DNA of 59,035 nt, from positions 1 to 59,035 of the forward strand of contig DUNA01000055.1 in assembly GCA_012839605.1 (NCBI GenBank), read 5' to 3'. Origin of the DNA: Bacteroidales bacterium (GTDB taxonomy: Bacteria; Bacteroidota; Bacteroidia; Bacteroidales; UBA932). How positions within the stretch are numbered: position 1 is the first letter of the stretch; the number at the start of each line of letters is the position of its first letter. Under the pieces are notes generated by a model, which was not told the DNA's origin, did not search any database, and saw nothing but the letters and a program-made list of their open reading frames with translations. Both the position numbers and the translations under genes were made by a program. Positions 25,197 to 55,394 of this stretch are shown piece by piece.

Positions 25197-25934
25197 ATGA
25201 AAAAGTTTTTCGTATTTTTGGCAGTTCTAGGGTTCATTACCATTTCTGCTCAGTACGCAGTTGCACAAACAGCCACCTTGACAGGTGAAACAGAACAGGT
25301 TGAAATCCCCGTTCACCAACAACTCAAAACAAAATTTATTGAAGGTGGTCCCGAATTTATGGCAGTTATTCTGCTTTGTTTGGTGTTTGGCCTGGCTTTA
25401 GCCATTGAGCGTATTATTTATTTGACGCTAGCAGAAACAAATACCGGCAAATTGCTAGATAAAGTGGAAAACGCCATGAAAGAAGGTGGTGTAACAGCTG
25501 CTATGGATGTTTGCCGCAATACTCGTGGACCGGTAGCAAGTATCTTTTATCAAGGCCTCTCTCGTGCAGACCAAGGACTTGAAATTGTAGAGAAGTCTAT
25601 CACTTCATACGGTTCTGTGCAAATGAGCCAACTTGAAAAAGGTCTTTCTTGGATTCAGCTCTTTATTGCTATTGCACCTATGTTAGGTTTCATGGGTACA
25701 GTTATTGGTATGATTGCGGCCTTTGACGCTATTGAAGCTGCTGGAGATATTTCTCCCAACATTGTAGCCGGCGGTATCAAGGTTGCTCTTATTACCACTG
25801 TTTTTGGTCTTATCGTAGCCATTATTCTCCAATTGTTCTACAACTACCTGGTTGCCAAAATTGACGGTATTGTACTGAAGATGGAAGATGCTTCCATTGC
25901 AATGGTTGATATTTTGGTCAAATACGAAAAATAA
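25197..25934 (+). CDS. exbB: MotA/TolQ/ExbB proton channel family protein
   Basis: Inner-membrane proton-channel subunit that, with ExbD, energises TonB-dependent outer-membrane transport. 245 residues. A signal-like N-terminus ending near AVAQ at residue 23 is followed by a short extracytoplasmic stretch and membrane helices at about 54-75, 150-178 and 194-217. The last two carry the conserved GFMGTVIGM and ITTVFGLIVAI segments of the family. First gene of a four-gene operon. Confidence 0.93.
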   Translation: MKKFFVFLAVLGFITISAQYAVAQTATLTGETEQVEIPVHQQLKTKFIEGGPEFMAVILLCLVFGLALAIERIIYLTLAETNTGKLLDKVENAMKEGGVTAAMDVCRNTRGPVASIFYQGLSRADQGLEIVEKSITSYGSVQMSQLEKGLSWIQLFIAIAPMLGFMGTVIGMIAAFDAIEAAGDISPNIVAGGIKVALITTVFGLIVAIILQLFYNYLVAKIDGIVLKMEDASIAMVDILVKYEK

Positions 25935-25943
25935 AACAAGGAA

Positions 25944-26369
25944 ATGAAGAATATATCAAAAATAACCGTATGGGTACTCTTTGCAGTCAGTATCTTGCTT
26001 ACTATATTGTATCTAATCAATATTGGCGGTAACAAACTGGATGCATGGACATATACCTATCTGAACTGGGCCTACGTGATGATAGCCCTATCTGTTATTC
26101 TGATTGTCCTGTTGCCTATATTGACTTTCAAACAAAGAACCGTTAAAATAAAACCCCTTTTGATTACTTTGGCAATCGCCATTGTACTTGTTGGCGGCTC
26201 TTATTTGTTAGCTCCGGGTACACCTGTTACCTTAGCAACAGGAACTGTAGTGGAAGGGTCTGTGGTAAAGTTTACAGACACCTCTATTTATATGACTTAC
26301 ATTCTGGTGGCATTTTCGGGCATTGCCATAGTAGGCGGCTCGATATACAATGCCCTCAGAAAGAATTAA
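25944..26369 (+). CDS. Small four-helix membrane protein in the exbBD operon
   Basis: Unknown function. 141 residues with four predicted membrane helices (about residues 8-28, 40-60, 68-86 and 116-136) and short loops; no catalytic motif seen. It sits between exbB and the first exbD with gaps of 9 and 21 bases, so it is co-transcribed. I recall a similar small membrane protein in exbB-exbD operons of other Bacteroidota, which suggests an accessory role in the energising complex, but this is inference. Confidence 0.8.
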   Translation: MKNISKITVWVLFAVSILLTILYLINIGGNKLDAWTYTYLNWAYVMIALSVILIVLLPILTFKQRTVKIKPLLITLAIAIVLVGGSYLLAPGTPVTLATGTVVEGSVVKFTDTSIYMTYILVAFSGIAIVGGSIYNALRKN

Positions 26370-26390
26370 TCCGGTAAATTTTAAACAATT

Positions 26391-26978
26391 ATGGCAAAAC
26401 CAGCAGGTGAAATCAATGCAGGCTCAATGGCAGATATAGCTTTCCTGCTGCTTATATTCTTTCTGGTAACCACTACCATGGACGTTGAAACAGGAATCCA
26501 ACGCCGTCTGCCTCCTATGCCCGATGAAAATCAGAAGCAAGAAGTTGAGCAGATTAACAAAAGGAACATTATGGTAGTTCTAATCAACCAGAGTGACCGC
26601 TTGTTCGCAGGCGGGCAGGAAATGCACATTACCATGCTGAAAGACAAGGTCAAAGAATTCATTGTCAACCCCGCCGACCTTCCGGACCTTCCGGAAAAAC
26701 GTGAAAGGAACATCGAAGACTTTGGGCCCATCATGGTTTCCCGTGCCGTTGTATCTCTGCAAAACGACCGCGGTACTTCATACGACGCCTACATTCAAGT
26801 TCAGAACGAACTGGTGAAAGCGTTTAATGAAGTTCGGGACGAATTTGGCATGCAACATTTTGGTAAGAAATACAATTCCCTAGATGAAGACCAGCAGCGG
26901 ATAGTCAGAGAAGCCGTTCCCATGAACCTCTCTGAAAGAGAACCCAGGGAAGTTGGAACCAGAAGAAGAAGAAGATAG
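26391..26978 (+). CDS. exbD: ExbD/TolR family biopolymer transport protein (first copy)
   Basis: Bitopic partner of ExbB. 195 residues: a short N-terminus, one membrane helix starting SMADIAFLLLIFFLVTTT with the conserved channel aspartate (D15), then a periplasmic domain of about 160 residues that is longer and more charged than usual and ends in a run of arginines. The Asp is the proton-carrying residue in ExbD. Followed by a second, divergent exbD, the common two-ExbD arrangement in Bacteroidota. Confidence 0.93.
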   Translation: MAKPAGEINAGSMADIAFLLLIFFLVTTTMDVETGIQRRLPPMPDENQKQEVEQINKRNIMVVLINQSDRLFAGGQEMHITMLKDKVKEFIVNPADLPDLPEKRERNIEDFGPIMVSRAVVSLQNDRGTSYDAYIQVQNELVKAFNEVRDEFGMQHFGKKYNSLDEDQQRIVREAVPMNLSEREPREVGTRRRRR

Positions 26979-26982
26979 GAGG
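26977..26982 (+). promoter_or_regulatory. Strong Shine-Dalgarno for the second exbD
   Basis: AGGAGG eight bases before the ATG at 26991, overlapping the stop codon of the first exbD. Confidence 0.5.
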
Positions 26983-26990
26983 AAATCATT

Positions 26991-27470
26991 ATGGCAAAAT
27001 TTAAATCGAGCTCAAGTAAAGAACTGAAACCCCTGAACACGGCATCCCTTCCGGATATTGTGTTTATGTTGTTGTTCTTTTTCATGATATCTGTAAGCTT
27101 CCGCCAAACAGAAACAGTAGTTACCGTTAAGCTCCCGGAAGCAACAGAAATTGCGAAATTGGACAGAAAAGACTTAGCAAGCTATATCAATATTGGTACG
27201 CCTCTGACAACTTATCAATCTCAATACGGAACAGATGCAAGGATTCAGCTCAACGACGCATTTAGCAACATTGACGATATCCGTGACTTTATTGCAGCAT
27301 CGCGCGAATCTATGTCAGAAGCAGACCGTCCCTTTATGACGGTTGCCTTAAAAGTAGATGAGAACGTTCGTATGGGTATTGTAACAGATGTGAAACAGGA
27401 GTTACGCCGTTGTTCTGCACTTAGGATTATGTATTCCACGCGCAGAAAAGCAGAGAAGACCTATTTCTGA
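26991..27470 (+). CDS. exbD: ExbD/TolR family biopolymer transport protein (second copy)
   Basis: Second ExbD of the operon, 159 residues. One membrane helix with the channel aspartate in ASLPDIVFMLLFFFMISV (D near residue 22), then a periplasmic domain ending VKQELRRCSALRIMYSTRRK. It differs clearly from the first copy, so the two probably form a mixed dimer in the ExbB pore. The operon ends in the hairpin terminator that follows. Confidence 0.92.
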   Translation: MAKFKSSSSKELKPLNTASLPDIVFMLLFFFMISVSFRQTETVVTVKLPEATEIAKLDRKDLASYINIGTPLTTYQSQYGTDARIQLNDAFSNIDDIRDFIAASRESMSEADRPFMTVALKVDENVRMGIVTDVKQELRRCSALRIMYSTRRKAEKTYF

Positions 27471-48874: not shown

Positions 48875-51640
48875 ATGGAATATAATTTTTCAAAGATTGA
48901 AGAGAAGTGGCAATCCTATTGGGCAAAACACAAAACGTATCGTGTAGTTGAAGACCTTGACAAACCAAAATTCTATGTGTTGGATATGTTCCCTTATCCA
49001 TCGGGAGCAGGTCTGCATGTAGGACACCCCCTAGGGTACATTGCAAGCGACATTTATGCCCGCTATAAAAGATTGAAAGGTTACAACGTGCTACACCCCA
49101 TGGGTTATGATGCCTTTGGGCTCCCGGCGGAACAATATGCCATTCAGACGGGGCAGCCGCCACAAATAACAACGGAACAAAATATAGAACGGTATAGGGA
49201 GCAATTGGATAAATTGGGTTTTTCTTACGATTGGGATAGGGAAATACGTACGTGCGACCCACAGTACTACAAGTGGACACAATGGGCTTTCTTGAAAATG
49301 TTTGACCATTGGTACGATAAGGAAAAAGAAACGGCAAGACCCATAGAACAGCTTGTGGTATTGTTTGAAGAAAGAGGGAATGCCCATGTAGCAGCCGCTC
49401 ACCACTGTCCGTACGAATTTACGGCAAACGATTGGAACACCTATTCAGAAGCAAGAAAAGAAGAGGTGCTCATGTACTATCGGATAGCGTATCTTGGAGA
49501 AACTTCTGTCAACTGGTGTCCTGTCCTGGGAACGGTACTGGCCAATGATGAAGTAAAAGACGGTCTTTCCGTAAGAGGAGGACACCCTGTGATTCAAAAA
49601 GAAATGAAGCAATGGCAATTACGAGTATCCGCCTATGCAGAAAGGCTTTTAGATAGTTTGGATACGCTTGCTTGGTCCGATTCTTTAAAAGAAATGCAAC
49701 GCAACTGGATTGGAAGATCAGAAGGAGCTGAAATGGTTTTTCAAGTAAACAACGGCCCTGTTATTTATGAAATGCCCGTTTTTACTACTCGTCCGGACAC
49801 GTTGTTTGGTGTTACCTTTATGGTATTGGCACCGGAAAGCGAATGGACTGAAAAGTTAACAGCCAAAGAAAATCAACAACAAGTTGCAGATTACATTTCT
49901 TATGCAAAAACGAAAACAGAAAGAGAGCGCATGACAGATACACAACGCGTCACCGGTGTCTTTTCAGGCTCTTATGCTACCCATCCTTTTACAGGCGAAA
50001 AACTGCCAATATGGATTAGTGAATACGTAATGGCAGGCTACGGTACGGGCGCCATTATGGCTGTACCGGCACACGATAGCAGAGACTATTTGTTTGCCAA
50101 ACATTTTGATTTGCCCATAATTCCGCTTATTGAGGGATGCGATATCAGCCAAGAAAGCTTTGATGCCAAAGAAGGTATTATGTGCAATTCCGGATTCATG
50201 AACGGAATGACAGTTGCACAAGCTATAGAAGCAGCACTTCTAAAAATAGAAAAAGACAAATTAGGGGTTCGCAAAACAAATTACCGGTTGAGAGATGCCA
50301 TCTTTTCCCGGCAAAGATATTGGGGTGAACCGTTCCCTATATATTATGAAGGCAACATAGCCAGGCCTCTTCCCGAATCTGAATTGCCCTTGGTGCTGCC
50401 TCATATAGACTCCTATCAGCCTTCGGGAACGGGAGAGCCTCCTTTGGCCGGTGCTACAAATTGGAAGTATAAAGATTTTCCTATAGAAACATGTACCATG
50501 CCCGGTTTTGCCGGAAGTTCTGCCTATTTTCTTAGATACATGGACCCACACAATACAGAAGCGTTAGTCTCTGAAGAAGCCAATGCGTATTGGCAAAACG
50601 TAGACTTGTATATTGGTGGAACAGAACACGCGACCGGACATCTTATTTATTCCAGATTTTGGAACAAGTTCTTATTTGATTTAGGCTACATCTGCAAAGA
50701 CGAACCCTTTGAAAAATTGGTCAACCAAGGCATGATCCAAGGACGTTCCAACTTCGTTTACAGAATAAAAAACACCAATACGTTTGTTTCCTACAACTTG
50801 AAAGATGATTACGATACTACTGAAATCCATGTAGATATCAACATGGTAGAAAACGACAAGTTGGATATAGAAGCGTTCCGTCAGTGGAACCCGGAATACG
50901 CAAACGCCACTTTCATACTGGAAAATGACGAGTACATCTGTGGCTGGGCTGTGGAAAAAATGAGCAAATCTATGTTCAACGTAGTAAATCCCGATGATAT
51001 TTGTTCTCAGTATGGAGCAGACACCCTGCGTCTGTACGAAATGTTCCTGGGGCCATTGGAACAATCAAAACCTTGGGACATGAACGGTATTGATGGAGTA
51101 CACCGTTTTTTGAGAAAATTCTGGAAATTGTACTTTGATAAAGAAGACCGTTTTGCAGTTGCGGAAGAAGAGCCAACTGCTGCCGAATTGAAAACGTTAC
51201 ACCAACTCATACAGAAGGTAGCCTACGATATTGAACATTTTTCATTCAACACCACCGTGAGTGCTTTTATGATTGCTGTAAACGAACTGACTCAATTGCA
51301 GTGCCGTAAAAGAAGCATTCTGGAGCCTTTGGTTGTTCTCATTTCTTCTTATGCACCTCATATTGCAGAAGAGCTGTGGTCTCTGCTAGGCAATACATCG
51401 TCTGTAGCCCATGCATGCTTCCCGGTATACAACCCGGAGTATACAAAAGAAGATGCCTTTGAATACCCCGTATCTGTTAACGGCAAATTGCGCTTTAAAA
51501 TCAACTTAAGTAAAGAGTTGACAAAAGAAGCTATTGAAGAAGCCGTTTTAAAAGACGAAAGAACAGAAAAATATACGAGCGGATCTCTCATTAAAAGAAT
51601 TGTTGTTGTACCCGGTAAAATTATAAACCTTGTTGTATGA
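48875..51640 (+). CDS. leuS: Leucine--tRNA ligase
   Basis: Class I synthetase charging tRNA-Leu with proofreading. 921 residues. HIGH-type motif in [18 protein letters not shown] near residue 38, the CP1 editing domain with [17 protein letters not shown] near 307, and KMSKS in [14 protein letters not shown] near 693. An insertion of about 50 residues around 620-690 before KMSKS is seen. ATG at 48875. Its stop overlaps the YitT-family ATG. Confidence 0.97.
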
Positions 51641-52515
51641 AAGCCGTAAAAGAATATTTGCTCATAACACTCGGAATCCTTATTTACGTAACTGCGTGGA
51701 CCACGTTTATTGTTCCAAACCATTTGGTTGGCGGAGGTGTAGCAGGCATTTCAACGCTTATATACTATGCCACCAACCTGCCCATCAGTGTTTCCTTCTT
51801 TGCCTTTAATGTAATCCTCATTATCATTGGGCTCCGTACCGTAGGATGGAAGTTTGGCATAAAGACCATCTTTGGTGTTGGTATTACTACGTTGGCTTTC
51901 CAGTTTTTACCGGCTATTATACCGCAAGACCTGATTCAAGCCATGGCGTTGGACAACGGAAAACTCATATCGGCCCTTATGGGAGCGGCGGCATCCGGAG
52001 TAGGTATAGGAATGGTCATCGCCCAAGGCGGAAGCACAGGAGGAACAGATATCTTGGCTCAAATTGTAGGCAAATACCGCAACATATCACCGGGACGCTT
52101 TATGATGGCTTGTGACTTGGTCATCATTGCCTCGTTGTTTTTCATTTCAGACGAACCAACCGTTGGCTTAAAGCTGGCAGCCGTACTGTATGGCTATTTG
52201 ATCATCGGATTGTTTGGATACACAGTAGATATGATGTTGTCCGGTGCCAAACGGTCTGTACAATTTTTTATTTTCAGTGCAAAATACCAAGAAATAGCAG
52301 ACAGAATTTCCAACGAACTGCAACGCGGTGTAACTGTTGTGACATCGCAAGGTTGGTACACCAAAAACGAACAAAACGTACTCCTTATCATAGTCAGAAG
52401 AACAGAAGTAAATGCTGTGACAAAAATTGTGAAAGAAGTAGATAAAAATGCATTCCTTTCCAAAGCCAGCGTTTCCGGAGTATATGGAGCCGGATTTGAA
52501 GTGCTTAGAACGTAA
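51637..52515 (+). CDS. YitT family membrane protein (DUF161/DUF2179)
   Basis: 292 residues. Five or six membrane helices in the first 200 residues with the family signature [19 protein letters not shown] near 26, [14 protein letters not shown] near 131, and a C-terminal soluble DUF2179 domain (about 215-292) ending in [11 protein letters not shown]. Function is not established for the family. Overlaps leuS by 4 bases and its stop abuts the end of the M28 gene on the other strand. Confidence 0.9.
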
Positions 52516-53808
52516 TCACCGCATAGGAGCCAGTTCAAAATACACAGGAATGGTCATTTTTACAGGCACCTTCCGTTTGCTTTTCTCCCCGGCTTTCCAT
52601 TTGGGCGAAGCAGAAATGACTCGCAAAGCTTCTTTGTCCAGCAATGGATGAGCGGAACGTTCCACTTCCACCTGCGCTACAGTACCGTCTTTTTCTATGA
52701 TAAACGAAACCATCACCCGGCCTTTGATGCCTTGACTGATGGCCTCTTTTGGATACCGCTGGTATTTATAAACCCAACTGTCCAAGAAAAATTCAATGTT
52801 GCCTTTCATAAAAGTAGGCGGAACATCTACCTCTGTATAACTGTAGACTCGTTCCCCTGTTCCCGTATAAGTATTTTCTACAGGAGTGAGCAACTCTTCC
52901 GGACCGTTGGCTGTTTTCGATAGAAATTGAAACACATACCTGCAAAAGCTTTCCATTTTTTCAAAATCCAACCTATCGGGCGTATCCCTCAATGTTTGAT
53001 GGTATGGGTGTAATCCTGTAGTAAACAAACAAGCCGGAATGTTTTTTTCCATAAAGGCCTGGTGGTTGGAAGAAAAAAAGTCAGATCCGTATACTTCTAC
53101 TTGCGGCATAAACGGTTCCATTGCCAAAGTTGTAAGCACATGTTCTCTTTCGTAATGGGGCTGTCCGCAATACACTGCAGGTGTGTTTTCATGAGACATG
53201 TGTCCCAGTCTGTCCAAGTTCACCATCAATTTTACGGAAGCCTGCGGAAAGGCTCTGTTTATAAAATACCAAGCACCCAATCCGCCTCTTTCTCCCGCTC
53301 CAAAAGCAACAAACAGCAAACTTCTTTTGTACATGAAATACTGACTTTGAGCTGCTCCGGCCAGTTCTATCAACGCCGCCACTCCGGATGCGTTGGCGTC
53401 TGCTCCCGGATATATGCACAAACTATCTTTTCCGTTGATGCGCATGGTGTATGTTCCCAAGTTGTCGTAATGCGCTCCTACCACAATATATTCTTCCCTT
53501 AGCACGGGATCGTATCCCGGAATGACAGCTACAACATTTTGTGAATACAACGTATCGCCCGTCGTCGGATCTACATAAGAAAAGTCTTGGAAACCACCCG
53601 GATAGAGCAACTCCAATCCTTTCTCTTTAAAACGGGCCGAGACCCATGACGCTGTCTCTGCTTCTGAAGGCGTTCCGGCAAGTCGTCCCATGTACTTTTG
53701 CGAAGTCAATGCTTTTACATGGCTCTCCAAAGCCTTCTGAAAAGAATCCTGAGCCTGCAAAAGTGCAACGCTCAGGATACTAAGTAACAAAATGAAAAAA
53801 CGTTTCAT
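52516..53808 (-). CDS. M28-family peptidase fused to a TonB C-terminal domain (general base missing)
   Basis: 430 residues from the ATG at 53808; signal peptide ending near LLQAQ (residue 20). M28 aminopeptidase-like domain to about residue 300: metal ligands H113 (GAHYDN), D137 (GADANASG), E173 (AGERGG), D199 (NLDRLG) and H270 (HPYHQT) are all present. In Aeromonas aminopeptidase the general-base Glu precedes the metal-binding Glu; here that place is Gly172 (codon GGA), so the usual catalytic residue is lost. The C-terminal region (about 330-427) reads as a TonB C-terminal domain (GRVMVSFIIEKDGTVAQVEVERS..LDKEALRVI). Start overlaps the gcvT stop (ATGA). Possibly a non-catalytic binding protein. 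Confidence 0.85.
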   Translation of the reverse strand: MKRFFILLLSILSVALLQAQDSFQKALESHVKALTSQKYMGRLAGTPSEAETASWVSARFKEKGLELLYPGGFQDFSYVDPTTGDTLYSQNVVAVIPGYDPVLREEYIVVGAHYDNLGTYTMRINGKDSLCIYPGADANASGVAALIELAGAAQSQYFMYKRSLLFVAFGAGERGGLGAWYFINRAFPQASVKLMVNLDRLGHMSHENTPAVYCGQPHYEREHVLTTLAMEPFMPQVEVYGSDFFSSNHQAFMEKNIPACLFTTGLHPYHQTLRDTPDRLDFEKMESFCRYVFQFLSKTANGPEELLTPVENTYTGTGERVYSYTEVDVPPTFMKGNIEFFLDSWVYKYQRYPKEAISQGIKGRVMVSFIIEKDGTVAQVEVERSAHPLLDKEALRVISASPKWKAGEKSKRKVPVKMTIPVYFELAPMR

Positions 53809-54914
53809 CAAGGTTTATAAAAAGGAGGCCGGACCGCTACTGCTTTGAGGATCCGATTCCTTACTTGTATATAAAGATCTGTTCCTACCGGTGCAAAGGC
53901 CGTTTCCACATAGCCCATTCCAATGCCTATTTTCAAAGCCGGAGACATGGTGCCCGATGTGACGGTACCTATTTCTTTTCCATCAGCCGTGCAAATGGGA
54001 TAGCCTTGCCTGGGCACCCCTCTGTCTACCATAGTAAAGGCCGTCAATTTTCTGGATACTCCTTGTTCTTTTTGTTCTTGCAAGAAGGCTTTGTCTATAA
54101 AATCTCCTTTGGCTTCAGAAAATTTTGTAATCCATCCCAAACCGGCTTCCAAAGGCGAGGTCGTGTCGTCTATATCGTTTCCGTACAGACAGTATCCCAT
54201 TTCCAAACGCAATGTATCTCTGGCACCCAATCCAACAGGCTGCAAATCAAACTCTTTTCCGGCTTCAAACAAAGCGTTCCACAGTTTTTCCCCGTCTTCG
54301 TTAGACACGTAAATTTCACATCCCCCGGATCCTGTATATCCTGTAATAGATAACAACGCATTGGGAATTCCGGCTACATTGCATTTTTTAAACGTATAGA
54401 ACTCCATGTCCAAAATGGGGGAGTCTGTTATTTTTTGAACAATCTTCATAGCATGGGGTCCCTGAACGGCCAATAGGCACATTTCATCAGAGGCATCGTA
54501 CAATTCTTTGCCCGGGGTAATCCCAAAATTGGGGGCGTATTGACACAAATGGTCCCAATCTTTTTGAATATTGGCTGCGTTTACTACTAAGAGATACGTC
54601 TGATCATCTACTCTGTACAAAAGAAAATCATCTACAATACCGCCTTTTCCGTTTGGAAAACACGTGTACTGTATTTTTCCATCTTGCAAAGTGGACGCGT
54701 CGTTTGTAGTAACGTACTGAATAAATTCCAGAGCCCTGGGACCTTTGATCCAAAATTCACCCATGTGGCTGACATCAAAAACTCCGGCATTTTCTCGTAC
54801 CTGCATATGCTCTGCATTGATACCCTTGTACTCTATAGGCATGTTGTAGCCCGCAAAGGGTACCATCTTGGCTCCCAGCTCCTTATGGAACCGGGTGAAA
54901 ACAGTATTTTTCAT
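53808..54914 (-). CDS. gcvT: Aminomethyltransferase (glycine cleavage system T protein)
   Basis: Transfers the methylene group of lipoyl-bound glycine to tetrahydrofolate. 368 residues. N-terminal HKELGAKMVPFAGYNMPIEY, GVFDVSHMGEF near 43, the ALLSITGYTGSGGCEIYV folate-site region near 190, DTLRLEMGYCLYGNDI near 235, and GTVTSGTMSPAL near 318. The H and P subunit genes are not adjacent. Three bases after a SPOR lipoprotein gene. Confidence 0.95.
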   Translation of the reverse strand: MKNTVFTRFHKELGAKMVPFAGYNMPIEYKGINAEHMQVRENAGVFDVSHMGEFWIKGPRALEFIQYVTTNDASTLQDGKIQYTCFPNGKGGIVDDFLLYRVDDQTYLLVVNAANIQKDWDHLCQYAPNFGITPGKELYDASDEMCLLAVQGPHAMKIVQKITDSPILDMEFYTFKKCNVAGIPNALLSITGYTGSGGCEIYVSNEDGEKLWNALFEAGKEFDLQPVGLGARDTLRLEMGYCLYGNDIDDTTSPLEAGLGWITKFSEAKGDFIDKAFLQEQKEQGVSRKLTAFTMVDRGVPRQGYPICTADGKEIGTVTSGTMSPALKIGIGMGYVETAFAPVGTDLYIQVRNRILKAVAVRPPFYKP

Positions 54915-54917
54915 AAA

Positions 54918-55394
54918 TTAAAAATGTAGATTTTGTTTGGTATCGTATACCCAGACATCATACGGAGTAATGTCCAAGGCAAACATTTTATACATCCTGT
55001 TGTACGCATCGTGCAACACGTCGGTCTGATAAGCAGAAATCACAGAATACCCATTTTTAAACGATATTTTTACAGGCGTATACCCTTCTTTTTCTATGGA
55101 CTGCAGCATTCTTGCAGCATTGTTGTCCATAATAAAACTTCCTAAAACCACGTGGTACCGTTTCAGGGCTTTTTTCTGCGCTTCAATCTGCTCTAAAGAG
55201 TCCAAACGCAACTGCTCCAAACGAGCAGCTTCTTTTTCTGCCTCTACTTTTTCCAAAGAATCTTTAATCAATTGTTCTTGCTTTTCTCTCAATTCTTTAG
55301 ATGTGGGCATCCCCAGTTTGGAACGAACCCAATCACAGGAATTCAAACTGCCCAGCAGCATGATCCCAACGAGTAACGGGAATATTTTCTTCAT
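54918..55394 (-). CDS. SPOR-domain lipoprotein
   Basis: 158 residues. Lipoprotein signal MKKIFPLLVGIMLLGSLNSC with Cys at residue 20, a charged coiled-coil segment rich in Glu, Lys and Arg (about 33-75), then a SPOR domain (about 78-150; RYHVVLGSFIMDNNAARMLQSIEKEGYTPV). SPOR domains bind denuded septal peptidoglycan, so a division or wall-remodelling role at the envelope is likely. It heads a unit with gcvT and the M28 gene. Confidence 0.88.
   Translation of the reverse strand: MKKIFPLLVGIMLLGSLNSCDWVRSKLGMPTSKELREKQEQLIKDSLEKVEAEKEAARLEQLRLDSLEQIEAQKKALKRYHVVLGSFIMDNNAARMLQSIEKEGYTPVKISFKNGYSVISAYQTDVLHDAYNRMYKMFALDITPYDVWVYDTKQNLHF

Follow-up and report, generated by a model that had tools for sequence, protein, structure and literature searches.

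In a 59,035-nucleotide stretch of DNA from a Bacteroidales bacterium (contig DUNA01000055.1; this whole stretch is called the window below), one gene joins an M28 peptidase domain to a TonB C-terminal domain (TonB_C), with a glycine in place of the general-base glutamate of active M28 peptidases. The question raised by this locus is whether the encoded protein is still a peptidase and, if not, for what an M28 fold joined to a TonB-type domain would be kept. Its 430-amino-acid frame is intact over positions 52516–53808 of the minus strand, and the plus-strand reading of the same interval has stops. The gene, its parts and its neighbours are:

48875..51640, plus strand: leuS, on the opposite strand to the fusion in the window's genus
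51637..52515, plus strand: YitT-family membrane protein, convergent neighbour of the fusion
52516..53808, minus strand: predicted M28 pseudopeptidase-TonB_C fusion gene, 430 aa, ATG at 53808, stop included
52531..52764, minus strand: TonB_C domain, residues 349–426 (Pfam PF03544, 8.2e-20; identity to the genome's own TonB)
52927..53538, minus strand: Peptidase_M28 domain, residues 91–294 (Pfam PF04389, 2.3e-24; fold match over residues 19–327)
52996..53001, minus strand: codons 270–271, His-Gln (Tyr-His in intact relatives), with the metal-ligand His lost (alignments)
53293..53295, minus strand: codon 172, GGA (Gly), general-base column, Gly in 13/13 genus members
53749..53808, minus strand: N-terminal export signal, residues ~1–20, MKRFFILLLSILSVALLQAQ (from the sequence; the only strongly hydrophobic 19-mer)
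53808..54914, minus strand: gcvT, directly upstream of the fusion, its TGA stop and the fusion's ATG having one base in common (TGATG)

Domains, predicted structure and family

The original prediction had described an exported protein in which an M28 domain is joined to a TonB C-terminal domain, and both parts of this description hold. Pfam recovers the two domains at the positions listed, the TonB_C match scoring 71.5 bits against a curated cut-off of 24.6 (PF03544), and sequence and hydrophobicity place a signal at the N-terminus, its kind and cleavage site having been assigned by eye. Structural modelling, which had been proposed as a check, gave a confident AlphaFold2 model from a 51-row family alignment (mean pLDDT 93.2, pTM 0.77), of which residues 19–327 match M28 structures, with Bacillus BSAP (6hc7, Z 33.4) as the best hit, Vibrio/Aeromonas AP1 (1amp) at Z 30.3 and the transferrin receptor (3kas) at Z 31.0 (263 residues aligned, rmsd 2.3). 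By homology (PF04389 at 2.3e-24, model Z of about 30) the window protein belongs to M28.

Relatives were gathered with a profile made from 28 of them, searched at E ≤ 1e-70 (a limit that by itself is no proof of a TonB_C part in the matches) against genomes of the same family that are at least 85% complete. The profile matched in 349 of 384 family genomes and in 15 of 24 genera, leaving 35 genomes without a match. One relative, L040, is Candidatus Egerieousia excrementavium, and its genus is placed in GTDB family UBA932 (release 95) according to PMC8035907; the host group of the fusion is the Bacteroidales family matching GTDB UBA932. After removal of 23 of 164 loci at 97% identity, 141 distinct rows remained, the window included, and as 76 of the 164 loci were hand-picked from the family-search matches listed, counts over these rows are not population frequencies. 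A contig-end fragment behind gcvT (L091), a possible family member, was counted with the outgroup.

The window gene is an orthologue with the conserved neighbours gcvT and leuS, and these neighbours give no functional hint. Of the 131 rows with enough sequence, 97 have gcvT upstream in the same orientation at a distance of up to 1 kb and 34 do not. Over 139 rows, leuS immediately follows the fusion in the same orientation in 117, has the reverse orientation in 13 (those of the window's genus) and is not within the limits used in nine. One locus, L028, has an intact M28 gene without TonB_C in the slot after gcvT, perhaps a pre-fusion state or a loss of TonB_C. A label 'SPOR' for the neighbour at 54918 found no support in Pfam. 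Outside the family, no M28-TonB_C fusion was seen among the matches listed from samples of 393 order and 395 phylum genomes, both of which include the window's own genome; since the limits used (1e-50 for the order, 1e-62 for the phylum) would hide fusions with a much diverged M28 part, this absence holds only for the matches listed, which end at or before model positions 340 (order) and 334 (phylum) of 432. Plasmid records gave 32 matches, none covering 80% of the query; the Prevotella match among them (H4, query 209–426) spans, by eye, a TonB-like gene and several short genes that are separate from it. Among the matches listed from the literature (titles and abstract openings), no description of an M28-TonB_C fusion was found.

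The active site in the window protein and its genus

In the alignment, H113, D137, E173 and D199 of the window protein sit in M28 ligand columns, and the residue right before E173 is Gly172 (GGA), so that the replacement of the general-base Glu had been read correctly. The accompanying claim, that all five metal ligands are kept, stands for these four residues and fails for the fifth, H270. Pairwise phmmer alignments with Legionella LapA (6esl and 6ica) pair the enzyme His with Q271 and the enzyme Ile with H270, and in the family alignment all 29 intact relatives carry Tyr at column 270 and His at column 271, versus His and Gln in the window protein. H270 is not even fixed in the genus (His in 11 of 13, Gln in two members). 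The five-ligand set H, D, E, D, H of an active M28 peptidase is incomplete, its fifth column being Gln. In AP1 numbering H271 and E173 correspond to H256 and E152, both of which belong to the same metal site, so that site is the broken one. Two further columns deviate in the window protein: 248, with Asn versus Asp in 29/29 intact relatives and in the other 12 of the 13 genus members, and 244, with Phe versus Tyr in 25/29 intact relatives, a column not conserved in the outgroup rows. As a separate observation, His at column 270 (52999–53001), adjoining the lost His of column 271, occurs in 50 of the 109 base-less rows with a letter there and in none of the 29 intact rows.

All 13 genomes covered for the genus, among them that of the window, carry an orthologue. 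The alignment of homologues that had been suggested for testing whether the Gly is fixed gives Gly172 in 13/13, encoded by GGA, GGG, GGT and GGC, and with four different codons in use a read error at this position is ruled out. Over columns 113, 137, 172, 173, 199 and 271 the genus reads HDGEDQ (eight members), HDGQDQ (four) or HDGQDY (one). Homologues with Glu at column 172, named beforehand as a possible refutation, do occur, only outside the genus, and read as the older state and not as a sign of codon error. The earlier description of the protein as metal-binding is weakened in part: H113, D137 and D199 are the only ligands kept in all 13 members, H271 is lost in every one and E173 is Gln in five. 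That of a non-hydrolytic protein is well supported at the level of sequence. The window protein is an M28 fold lacking catalytic residues, i.e., a predicted non-peptidase M28 homologue. With its general base (172, Gly) and one metal ligand (271, Gln) gone, the M28 domain would no longer hydrolyse peptides.

Graded loss of the site and selection on the protein

Counting the window protein, there are 141 distinct members, and 29 of them have the six active-site residues complete. Column 172 is Glu in 30 of the 140 rows with a letter and some other residue in 110, comprising Ser (43), Gly (38), Lys (20), Gln (4), Met (2) and one each of Ala, Asp and Asn; the Asp, in L069, is counted as base-less and might still act as a base. 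When the 139 rows with all six letters are considered, 12 lack the base only, with five ligands kept, the reverse case of a base still present beside a missing ligand occurs in a single row, and the remaining 97 base-less rows have lost one to five ligands. The order of loss was apparently most often general base first, ligands later.

The base state changes at least nine times on a first tree, built without the six active-site columns and without fragments L078 and L089 (13 losses when only losses are allowed), and again at least nine times on a smaller second tree (mixture model; 69 chosen family rows of the 141 plus three outgroup rows), both trees being quick searches with weak inner branches (47/142 and 21/69, respectively) and with long branches that converge at the outgroup. 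Since intact rows are dispersed across the tree, loss seems to have happened repeatedly, though branch support is uneven. A recent change of the base is seen between L040 (Gln) and L189 (Glu), whose M28 domains are 92% identical. One orthologous gene spans intact sites, base-only losses and near-fully stripped sites, sometimes in close relatives, and with this range the order and consequences of an enzyme-to-pseudoenzyme change become testable with natural variants.

Selection was gauged from M28 dN/dS, which is 0.046–0.137 in the 20 of 23 broken-lineage pairs whose dS is finite, 0.045–0.085 in six of eight intact pairs and 0.072 in the mixed pair L040/L189, counted in neither set; dS is infinite in five of the 32 pairs and above 1 in nine of the 20 broken-lineage and three of the six intact pairs quoted, so the ratios are rough. 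On these values, broken M28 domains are under purifying selection about like that on intact ones. Columns 113, 137, 172, 173, 199 and 271, invariant in intact members, fall to ranks 91–196 of the 279 M28 columns in the 110 base-less rows, in which the scaffold residues D115 (110 rows), D275 (109) and G142 (110) are invariant where a letter is present and the TonB_C residues W345, Y352, P353, S401, P402 and W404 are each kept in 110/110. The catalytic letters are, by this measure, freer to vary and the M28 domain itself is not; conservation of the scaffold residues may reflect no more than upkeep of the fold. The striking feature is how many losses have occurred in a single orthologous gene on which selection still acts. 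Codon 172 is a single base away from a Glu codon, as a one-codon sequencing error would have it; given the fixed Gly with its four codons, the intact frame and dN/dS far below 1, such an error and a decaying pseudogene both have next to no probability and were rejected.

A possible role and comparison with known systems

The assembly that contains the window is 92.5% complete and encodes two TonB_C proteins, namely the fusion and a membrane-anchored TonB of 251 aa with a strongly hydrophobic N-terminal stretch, together with two ExbB-type proteins and 15 plug-domain matches, 14 of them over cut-off. Over 96 columns, which take in the stretch ahead of the domain, TonB_C of the fusion is 43% identical to this TonB of the same genome. 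The top hydrophobic 19-mer scores 1.77 in the fusion (residues 1–20) versus 2.89 in that TonB. The fusion seems to lack a membrane anchor comparable to that of TonB and has an M28 domain in the place of the linker; residues 1–20 of the fusion read as a cleaved signal, an uncleaved form being possible. The anchored TonB, the assembly's only other TonB_C protein, is located on another contig (C40), and positions 25197–27470 of the window (plus strand) hold exbB, a small membrane protein gene and two exbD genes in this order, with no adjoining TonB_C gene. In a Prevotella locus (L205, 2357–4245), three short genes with, by eye, TonB_C-like ends and signal-like starts, one of them lipoprotein-like, follow a TonB-like gene, and free TonB_C modules may, judging by sequence, exist elsewhere in Bacteroidales. 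TonB C-terminal domains are described in PMC9022066 and PMC11658791 as pairing with the TonB box of transporters, and their dimers as possibly binding peptidoglycan.

We favour, with a probability of about 0.55, a pseudopeptidase of the periplasm that has been retained for binding, TonB_C serving as its docking domain. Its ancestor would have been an active di-zinc aminopeptidase joined to a C-terminal TonB part, next to gcvT and leuS, the active site of which would then have been lost repeatedly, with the fold and the TonB_C domain held by selection. The present protein would be exported to the periplasm, the pocket or surface of its M28 domain would hold a peptide or protein, and TonB_C would dock it to outer-membrane TonB-dependent transporters, by TonB-style strand pairing, or near peptidoglycan. 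By analogy with TonB, the fusion could place an M28 domain that binds peptides or proteins at transporters or at the wall, with no coupling to energy, and the peptide- or wall-binding adaptor of the original prediction agrees with the kept scaffold and the purifying selection. A more specific version, which we consider doubtful, is a soluble periplasmic second TonB head, in which a peptidase-derived binder would occupy TonB boxes without energising them and peptidase activity would have been shed repeatedly as docking and binding took over; if true, such a head would tune or load nutrient import.

Two other readings weigh these observations differently. Were TonB_C the only working part, the protein would act at transporters as a soluble piece of TonB, in competition with TonB or as a buffer for it, and the dead M28 domain would be ballast, which would suit the export signal as the sole strongly hydrophobic stretch, the TonB_C signature residues present in every base-less row and the short exported-looking Prevotella proteins. 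Ballast should relax, however, and M28 constraint is about the same as in intact members, while L028 carries M28 without TonB_C in the same slot; we regard this reading as unlikely. Rather improbable is a protein that is still an enzyme, binding one metal through H113, D137 and D199 and acting slowly or on other substrates with another residue as base. Those three ligands are indeed kept in all 13 genus members, and losing the base alone need not end M28 activity: the E147A form of AaaA retains 46% activity, credited by its authors to neighbouring glutamates (PMC3426542), and the title of PDB entry 2anp calls an E151H aminopeptidase functional. AaaA, however, has a third glutamate beside its pair and the window protein has none, and against this reading stand also the loss of H271 in all 13 genus members, Gln for E173 in five and the fall in rank of the six catalytic columns. 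Glutaminyl cyclases, known other enzymes of the fold, keep all five ligands plus an active-site Asp and Glu according to PMC4000134, and an identity as glutaminyl cyclase was itself ruled out, two needed residues being missing (Gly172, Gln271).

A binding module docked by TonB_C, the reading that we prefer, would have TonB_C working outside energy-transducing TonB in Bacteroidales, many of which, going by record titles, come from animal guts. Two other proteins of the same genome have M28 with an intact site in another setting, next to PDZ in L112 and within a longer protein in L111, which makes the M28-TonB_C pairing a variation on a theme. Beside these, a second M28 protein of this genome (L113, G000:C70, 855–1889, minus strand), without TonB_C, reads HDKEDY, so that Lys replaces the general base and Tyr the His ligand, and it too looks inactive from its sequence; an outgroup row from another Bacteroidales record (L107), which lacks the base as well, looks similar, with Arg and Asn at these two columns.

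The M28 aminopeptidases AP1, Streptomyces SGAP, LapA and BSAP share with the fusion the fold and the order of active-site motifs, whereas the fusion misses the general base and one metal ligand and has TonB_C added. The AaaA autotransporter (PDB 9oqa, Z 29.5) resembles it in that M28 is fused to an envelope-targeting part; AaaA is an active aminopeptidase (PMC3426542) and has an autotransporter part where the fusion has TonB_C. CA_C2195 / DUF4910, an M28-like protein with one Zn, is bacterial like the window protein and has likewise lost part of its ligands; it may be without metallopeptidase activity according to PMC4000134, which also gives a MEROPS count of more than 550 non-peptidase M28 homologues. 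The fused domains differ between CA_C2195 / DUF4910 and the fusion, as do the losses. The transferrin receptor has, like the window protein, an M28 fold without catalytic residues; the fusion is bacterial and smaller, has intact-site orthologues beside it, and carries TonB_C where the receptor carries other domains. Transferrin receptors are catalytically inactive and serve protein-protein interaction, as stated in PMC4000134. Inactive M28 homologues such as the transferrin receptor are already known, and what is new here is the TonB_C fusion together with repeated, graded decay at one locus.
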